Of a stretch of DNA of 45,816 nt, positions 3,228 to 5,691 are shown in pieces. The stretch's first letter is position 1. The number at the start of each line of letters is the position of its first letter. The DNA is from Candidatus Hebobacteria bacterium. GTDB taxonomy: Bacteria > Armatimonadota > Hebobacteria > Hebobacterales > Hebobacteraceae. The DNA lies in assembly GCA_029821885.1 (NCBI GenBank), contig JALGXV010000001.1, positions 1 through 45,816 on the forward strand. The letters run 5' to 3'. The translations under genes and the position numbers were made by a program. The notes under the pieces are model-generated. The model ran no database searches, was not told the origin of the DNA, and worked only from the letters and a program-made list of their open reading frames with translations.

Positions 3228-4247
3228 ATGGTCGGCTCGCCGTCAACTCGATACGAAGCGGTCAAATCGGCGACGTGGACTGCGCTGGCCGTAGGCATCC
3301 TGCTTTCCGGGGCGCTATCGCATCCCGCCTTCGGGAGCTCCGAGGCCGAATACGAGAAGAGCATCGCCCGACTCCGGCCCATTGAGGTCGTGAGCGGCCC
3401 CCAGGTGAAGCAGGCGCGCCGAGCGGAATCCGGGCGCGCCCTGGAGGTCTCCGGCATCATCCAGGGGATATTCGCCAGCGGGGACGAGCGCATGATCCTG
3501 CTGCAGCTGGTGGACGAGACCACAGTGGAGATCGAGTGCGACGGCTCTCCCGAGGAGGCGCACCCCCGCGCTCGGGTCCGGTGCCTGGTCGAGCCAGCTG
3601 AGCCCCACCCAACGGCACGACTGCGTCTCGTCGACATAACCTGGGACAAGACACCCATCGAGTTGCTCCGGGAGGCCGCCAGGGCCGCCCTCAAGTTTCC
3701 CCCGACCGATCCCAAGGAGATCGCCCGCTCGGCGGCCGAGCTGAGACGCTCTCATCCCATGCCGGGCCAGGCGGGCGATCCCTCGATCGTGTGCAAGCTG
3801 GCCATAGCACATCTCAACCCGAGGCTCGGGCCGCGCGAGGTCGACAATATCGCCGACAGCATCATCAAGTACTCGGCGAAGTATAGCCTCGATCCCTACC
3901 TCGTCGTCGCTGTCATCGCGGCCGAATCCCGGTTCAACCCGAAGGCTCGGTCCTACAAGGGGGCCATGGGCCTGGGGCAGCTCATGCCAGCGACTGCGGC
4001 CGCTCACAATGTAGATGCCTACGACCCAATCGCGAATCTCCATGTCGCTGTCCGGATTCTCCGCCGCAACTTGGACAAGTATCACAACGACTGGAACAAA
4101 GCGCTCGCCGCCTACAACGCGGGTGTCGGGGCCGTGGACAGACACAAGGGAGTCCCTCCCTACCGTGAGACGCGGGAGTACCTCTGGAGGATCTACGAAT
4201 ACTGGTGTTGGCTCAAGGGGACCACGCCTGACCCGCGGCCGCGATAG
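3228..4247 (+). CDS. Secreted lytic transglycosylase (SLT domain)
   Basis: Signal peptide-like '[25 protein letters not shown]'; SLT motifs '[31 protein letters not shown]', '[28 protein letters not shown]'. Start chosen at ATG 3228. Confidence 0.88.
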
Positions 4248-4351: not shown

Positions 4352-4783
4352 ATGATCGTTGCCGTCCACGCACTTCTTGGATCCACCATCGCTCGGCTCT
4401 GCCGGACGCGAGTCCAGGCAGCCCTCGCTGGCGCTGCGTCTCACGCTCTCGCCGACATGCTTCCCCATCGGGATCTCGACATCCCGGAGGAGGCCCTCCT
4501 GCTGGCCGGGGCGCTCAGCCTGGTTGTGGCGGCCCGCGGCGTGGACTCGCGTGAGTTCGCCGGCGCACTCGGCGCATCCCTGCCCGATCTCGAGAACCTG
4601 ATCGGCCGCCTCGCGGCCATACCGGACGAACGGCTTGTCTTGCCCACGCACCGCAGCCATCACGGGCGAAGGACGACCGGCTTTGAGGGGCAGCTCGCGA
4701 TGGCGACGCTCGGCGTCATCTCGCTGCTCATCCCCGGCTGCGATAGCGAGGACACAGGGCAACGTGGTAATGCCTTAGCATGA
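4352..4783 (+). CDS. Small membrane protein resembling YdjM/DUF457 metal-dependent hydrolase family
   Basis: His-rich motifs 'ASHALADMLPHRD' and 'LPTHRSHHGR'; overlaps the next gene by ATGA. Confidence 0.5.
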   Translation: MIVAVHALLGSTIARLCRTRVQAALAGAASHALADMLPHRDLDIPEEALLLAGALSLVVAARGVDSREFAGALGASLPDLENLIGRLAAIPDERLVLPTHRSHHGRRTTGFEGQLAMATLGVISLLIPGCDSEDTGQRGNALA

Positions 4784-5691
4784 ACGTCAGCTCGCGGCAG
4801 GGCCCCAGACTACCGAGTCCGTTCGGCGAGGCGATGGAAGCATTCCTCGACACTTTGGCCGTCGAGAAGGGCCTGTCGCCAAATACGATCAGTTCCTACC
4901 GGCGCGACGTGCGCGACCATCTGGCCTTCCTGAGTTCTCAGAACGTCGAATCCCTGCAGGCCGTGGAGGAATCGCACCTCATCGTCTACCTCGGACGGCT
5001 CCGTCGCGCGGGAGCGGCCCCATCGACGGTCTCCCGCAGGCTCTCGGCGATCCGCTCCTTCTACCGGCACCTGGCCCGGGAGGAGCGCATCGCGAGCGAT
5101 CCCAGCGCGAACGTGCCGAGCTCCAGGCTGCAACGACAGCTCCCCACAGTGCTGTCCGTTGAGGAGGTGAAGCGGCTGATCGAGCAGCCGAACACGGGCA
5201 CACCTCGCGGCCTCCGCGATCGCGCCATGCTGGAGCTCGTCTACGCGGCAGGGCTGCGCGTGTCGGAGCTTGTCGGCCTCAGCCGCGGGGATGTCAATCT
5301 CGACCTCGGGCTGGTGAGGTGCCTCGGCAAGGGCTCGAAGGAGCGCATCTCTCCCGTCGGCCGCCCGGCCATTGAGGCGGTGCGGGCATATCTTGCGGCG
5401 CGCACAGATGCGTCTCCCTTCTTGTGTCTTGGCAACAAGGGCAGGGCGCTGACGCGGGTAGCGTTCTGGCGCATCGTGCGACGGTATGCCCGCCAGGCCG
5501 GTATCCGCAGGAAGATCTCTCCCCATACCTTCCGGCACTCGTTCGCCACTCACATGCTCGATGGCGGCGCTGACCTCCGCGCGATTCAGGAGCTACTCTT
5601 TTTTAATGATACGGCGACCACCGAGATCTACACCCACGTGTCGACCGACCGGCTCAGGGAAGTCTATCAGGCCTGCCACCCCCGTGCCTGA
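4780..5691 (+). CDS. Tyrosine site-specific recombinase XerC/XerD-like (internal segment corrupted by sequencing adapter)
   Basis: Phage integrase fold: 'GLRVSELVGLSRGDV', 'HTFRHSFATHMLDGGADLRAIQELL...TTEIYTHVS'. Segment FFNDTA replaces the usual GHxSxx. Confidence 0.9.
   Translation: MNVSSRQGPRLPSPFGEAMEAFLDTLAVEKGLSPNTISSYRRDVRDHLAFLSSQNVESLQAVEESHLIVYLGRLRRAGAAPSTVSRRLSAIRSFYRHLAREERIASDPSANVPSSRLQRQLPTVLSVEEVKRLIEQPNTGTPRGLRDRAMLELVYAAGLRVSELVGLSRGDVNLDLGLVRCLGKGSKERISPVGRPAIEAVRAYLAARTDASPFLCLGNKGRALTRVAFWRIVRRYARQAGIRRKISPHTFRHSFATHMLDGGADLRAIQELLFFNDTATTEIYTHVSTDRLREVYQACHPRA
5599..5633 (+). other. Illumina P5 oligo (AATGATACGGCGACCACCGAGATCTACAC) preceded by a T6 run; assembly contaminant
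   Basis: Exact 29/29 match at 5605-5633 with TTTTTT at 5599-5604; translation FFNDTATTEIYT. Confidence 0.95.

Follow-up and report, generated by a model that had tools for sequence, protein, structure and literature searches.

The 35 bases at positions 5599-5633 (+ strand) of the window, by which we mean the whole stretch of 45,816 nucleotides under analysis, are almost certainly not DNA of the organism but a copy of the oligonucleotide grafted on Illumina flow cells, six T's followed by the P5 sequence (TTTTTTAATGATACGGCG). The block lies inside a xerD gene; it is an artefact and holds no biology of the organism.

The P5 block and its host gene

A search of the window returned an exact P5 sequence, AATGATACGGCGACCACCGAGATCTACAC, at positions 5605-5633 (+), with 29 of 29 nucleotides identical and no mismatches, as the preliminary description had reported. 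This site was still the sole match when up to 3 mismatches were allowed, shuffled sequences gave 0 matches, and the number expected by chance in the 45.8-kb window is about 1e-13. Throughout the genome (3.79 Mb in 444 contigs) P5 is present only once, in the window, and a search of the same contigs for P7 found none. Directly 5' of P5, at positions 5599-5604 (+), stands the T6 run that forms the spacer of the grafted oligo, the only T or A homopolymer of at least 6 bases in 45.8 kb of DNA with 65% GC; relatives have GGNCA(C/T) here, the conserved Gly-His codons. The GC content of the 35-nt block is 43%, versus 65% for the host ORF. The last 17 nucleotides of P5 (ACCACCGAGATCTACAC; positions 5617-5633, +), where native and P5 sequences largely coincide, encode TTEIYT in frame and are the presumed priming site. 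Scans of the window for Rfam families, tRNAs and tandem repeats yielded nothing informative.

The host ORF (positions 4780-5691, +) is open throughout, reading ...IQELLFFNDTATTEIYTHV..., and encodes a tyrosine recombinase XerD of 303 amino acids, as assigned by TIGR02225 and by alignments with homologues. Artefact included, the protein scores 335.6 bits against the TIGR02225 model (the NCBI cut-off is 329.6) and matches the Pfam integrase domains PF00589 and PF02899; the earlier suspicion that an annotation pipeline would be blind to the block was therefore correct. In tyrosine recombinases the His of the LLGH motif, which we take to be His270 in the E. coli XerD numbering, is catalytic. Alignments with relatives and with E. 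coli XerD (PDB 1a0p), the latter nearly full length and with no gap at the block, place this conserved residue at codon 275 (positions 5602-5604, +), which as assembled is Phe; E. coli XerD is the same type of gene, but in the window assembly the Gly-His of LLGH reads Phe-Phe. The lost His results from overwriting by the oligo and says nothing about the real gene. The Tyr nucleophile, invariant in the alignment, is kept at codon 284 (positions 5629-5631, +), because it is located where P5 and the native sequence agree.

Native sequence in relatives

The xerD gene of the window was compared, base by base and as protein, with those of its genus and family; the nearest native sequence available for this comparison is that of another species of the same genus. 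The protein of this closest relative is 84% identical to that of the window and has an ordinary GHANIATTQIYTHV at the position of the block, in a gapless alignment. At the DNA level the congeneric gene reads GAGCTGCTC GGCCAC GCGAACATAGCGACGACCCAGATCTACAC TCACGTC, and its counterpart in the window reads GAGCTACTC TTTTTT AATGATACGGCGACCACCGAGATCTACAC CCACGTG; the two align without gaps in the block and its surroundings. These alignments show that the 35 nucleotides of T6 and P5 replaced 35 native bases, base for base, and the proposal that the swap was of equal length and kept the frame is borne out. Only about 20 bases were altered, because the 3' end of the oligo already resembled the native sequence: the native site is identical to the last 17 nucleotides of P5 at 15 of 17 positions in genome G001, and at 16 of 17 in genome G005. 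The DNA on both sides of the block is that of an ordinary native XerD in the same-genus and family alignments. The earlier statement that the sequence upstream of the P5 match is artefactual consequently holds only as far as the T6 run; further upstream the DNA is native.

Recurrence in other genomes and genes

A scan of genome collections for poly-T followed by P5 returned many records. Most of them are at contig ends and continue into a TruSeq or Nextera adapter, which is ordinary contamination; a smaller number lie inside contigs, have native sequence on either side and lack adapter. The block in xerD has in common with the adapter contamination of assemblies, to which most of the P5 copies found belong, the sequence of the oligo, often with poly-T; it differs in being in the middle of a gene with native sequence on both sides, no read-1 adapter, and length preserved. 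In a Rhodobacteraceae MAG (JAPOXR010000028.1) a block of the T6+P5 type is again located in XerD. It had been suggested that the string encoded by the block might be found in unrelated proteins, and indeed this XerD, whose identity to the window protein is only 39%, shares FFNDTATTEIYTHV with it, while the nearest relatives of the two have GHANIATTQIYTHV (window) and GHSDIATTEIYTHV (Rhodobacteraceae).

Other internal P5 blocks were recognized in an RfbA-like gene, in an arginine decarboxylase and in a uracil permease. To these is added T6+P5 at positions 1480-1517 of locus L240 (G153:C227), in a further genome belonging to the window's phylum and apparently outside xer genes. The uracil permease was compared with a relative that shares 95% identity with it beyond the block: T10+P5, 39 nt long, occupies the place of 39 native bases, and the alignment of the block is gapless; a 2-residue gap just upstream of it in the alignment with E. 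coli UraA is absent in the comparison with close relatives. When aligned to solved structures, RfbA and the arginine decarboxylase are gapless over the block. A solved structure was used for the latter as no homologue was present among 20 genomes, and for RfbA the relatives are too distant to display a good priming site. For two further loci, L384 and L129, the phage and E. coli collections offered no relative, apart from the adapter itself in the case of L129. A search of 5,426 complete E. coli genomes, at the sensitivity of megablast, detected no P5, and no viral contig contained P5 continuing into the xer codons CCCACGT.

The clearest case of an exact-length swap is a phage portal gene, and it involves P7. 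Viral contigs contain 4 internal, native-flanked copies of P7, with 10 to 13 T's. In the portal gene of Klebsiella phage Marfa (MN044033.1), which holds one of these copies, T10+P7 (34 nt) replaces exactly 34 native bases, with no gap; in phage Clarke_MM3, which shares 99.0% identity with Marfa beyond the block, the native 34 bases end in CGGCATACGAGAT, a natural copy of the 13-nt 3' end of P7. The same T10+P7 occupies the same place in Klebsiella phage EI (MN106245.1). No portal is annotated at the site in Marfa, and two pieces of it are annotated in EI.

Some other records are of a different nature. Escherichia phage HMD-P3 and Acinetobacter phage TAC1 were considered as members of the same class and rejected, since in both P5 is accompanied by an index and the read-1 adapter, as in ordinary insertions; these sit in genomes deposited as 'complete', where an endonuclease gene is split in one instance and the site falls between two tail fibre CDSs in the other. 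A contig measuring 1.69 Mb or more (L498, G384:C1:1691906) has an internal long T run followed by P5, an 8-nt index and a Nextera adapter: this is plain adapter contamination inside a near-chromosome contig. At positions 3600-3690 of a Protaetiibacter mangrovi scaffold T6+P5 adjoins an NNNNN gap, and an identical stretch of 29 bases is found on either side: scaffolding has made a join across the block.

xer genes as a hot spot

Natural exact copies of the 17-mer at the 3' end of P5 number 5 among 292 genomes from the phylum of the window and 8 among 399 from that of the Rhodobacteraceae MAG (about 690 genomes in total), whereas chance would account for about 0.3 over both sets (assuming 4 Mb per genome). 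All 13 of them are in xer genes, at TTEIYT; the other matches to the 17-mer (L240, L498, L502 and the window) are P5 artefacts or adapters themselves. Since every natural 17-mer is in a xer gene, GC-rich xerC and xerD genes have a built-in near-match to P5 and are a predictable hot spot. The original proposal that the P5 artefact was primed at the conserved TTEIYT codons is supported by the homologues, by the independent copies found in unrelated genomes and by the natural priming sites. Taken together, these observations make it very likely that grafted oligos (T6 or T10 with P5 or P7) give rise in short-read assemblies to a class of swaps of its own, exact in length and often keeping the frame, at natural matches to their 3' end, with xerC/xerD as a systematic hot spot and phantom FFNDTATTEIYTHV recombinases in the databases.

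Origin of the substitution

The T spacer bears on the source of the oligo. When viral contigs were scanned for P5 irrespective of T's, 6 of 6 internal, native-flanked copies proved to have at least 10 T's (10, 10, 10, 10, 11 and 13), and a T6 spacer is present in the window, in the arginine decarboxylase, at L240 and in the P. mangrovi scaffold. The use of T6 on patterned flow cells and of T10 on earlier types would account for both lengths observed. To our knowledge, the soluble P5 primers used for libraries have no poly-T spacer. As the internal copies carry poly-T, the source is therefore the grafted flow-cell oligo, not a library primer; a T10 spacer is documented in published solid-phase amplification primers of the P5/P7 type (PMC11123353). 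The preliminary description had attributed the block to mispriming by P5 with replacement of about 18 native bases: mispriming stands, while the primer becomes a grafted oligo, T spacer included, and the extent a swap of 35 nt with about 20 bases altered.

What is observed, then, is a foreign oligo of exact length, with native flanks, natural similarity at the priming site, and recurrence. As to how it came about, the following course of events is one that, on balance, we consider probable. Because the native TT(E/Q)IYT codons resemble the last ~17 nt of P5, a surface P5 oligo may anneal at these codons inside the insert, during clustering or paired-end turnaround, and be extended. The cluster would then be a mixture of truncated strands (surface, T6, P5, native downstream sequence) and full-length strands. 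A read directed toward the P5 end would traverse the shared native bases and then, from dominant truncated strands, the reverse complement of P5 and six A's; where the truncated strands end at the surface the full-length signal would take over, and native sequence would return at the correct offset. An assembler could take a read with such a length-preserving swap as a same-length bulge. Counting against this scheme, reads with the artefact should be a minority of the coverage, and yet they were assembled, even in the SPAdes contig of the Rhodobacteraceae MAG, whose name indicates 110x.

Among the alternatives, a join made in assembly or scaffolding between poly-T/P5 read ends and upstream native contigs could draw on the fact that adapter tails are common at contig ends, and on the P. 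mangrovi scaffold, where a repeated junction contains P5 together with an adjoining N gap. It would, however, preserve length only by coincidence, and length is exact in every case with an informative homologue (the two XerDs, the uracil permease, RfbA, the arginine decarboxylase and the phage portal); we regard it as highly improbable. Slightly less probable still is mispriming during library PCR, in which a soluble P5 primer would have annealed to xerD and the assembler would have joined the resulting chimeric end to native sequence. This would put P5 exactly at the TTEIYT codons just as well, and library artefacts of this type likewise have their position set by similarity to the 3' end of the primer; but it does not account for the T6 of the window and the longer spacers of the six viral copies, and with a terminal primer the return of native sequence at precisely the right upstream offset would be left without a cause. 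In the substitution by a grafted oligo, instead, a T spacer attaches the primer to the surface, and what results inside the assembly is a replacement of exactly the same length. Finally, that the sequence is real, having entered the organism's xerD through chance, recombination or introduced synthetic DNA, is barely conceivable despite the intact frame and a protein that still scores as XerD, as the chance probability is ~1e-13, the conserved Gly-His with the catalytic His would be lost in the only XerD-like copy (>35% identity) of the genome, and strings of 35-39 nt of this kind recur across unrelated genes, phyla and phages.

Implications and additional observations

In the xerD of the window the artefact removes a conserved Gly-His, inclusive of a catalytic residue, from a core chromosome-dimer recombinase; as frame and family cut-offs are left intact, it can pass in comparative work as a natural variant or an inactive XerD. 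The same class of artefact broke a phage portal gene in public records. No description of exact-length substitution by grafted oligos was found in the open-access literature searched, an absence that carries little weight. What can be reused from this study is the recognition of a class of exact-length, frame-keeping artefacts that is invisible to annotation, has a predictable hot spot, and is worth screening for: in DNA as five or more T's followed by P5 or P7 with native flanks, and in proteins as FFNDTATTEIYT or its reverse-frame form VDLGGRRIIKK.

With respect to other recombinases in the genome of the window, no clear XerC partner was seen at >35% identity to the window protein. The genome also contains three related copies of a second tyrosine recombinase with a TTARYLHS motif, on contigs C39, C418 and C78; their DNA identity is 80-84%, and they may belong to a mobile-element family.
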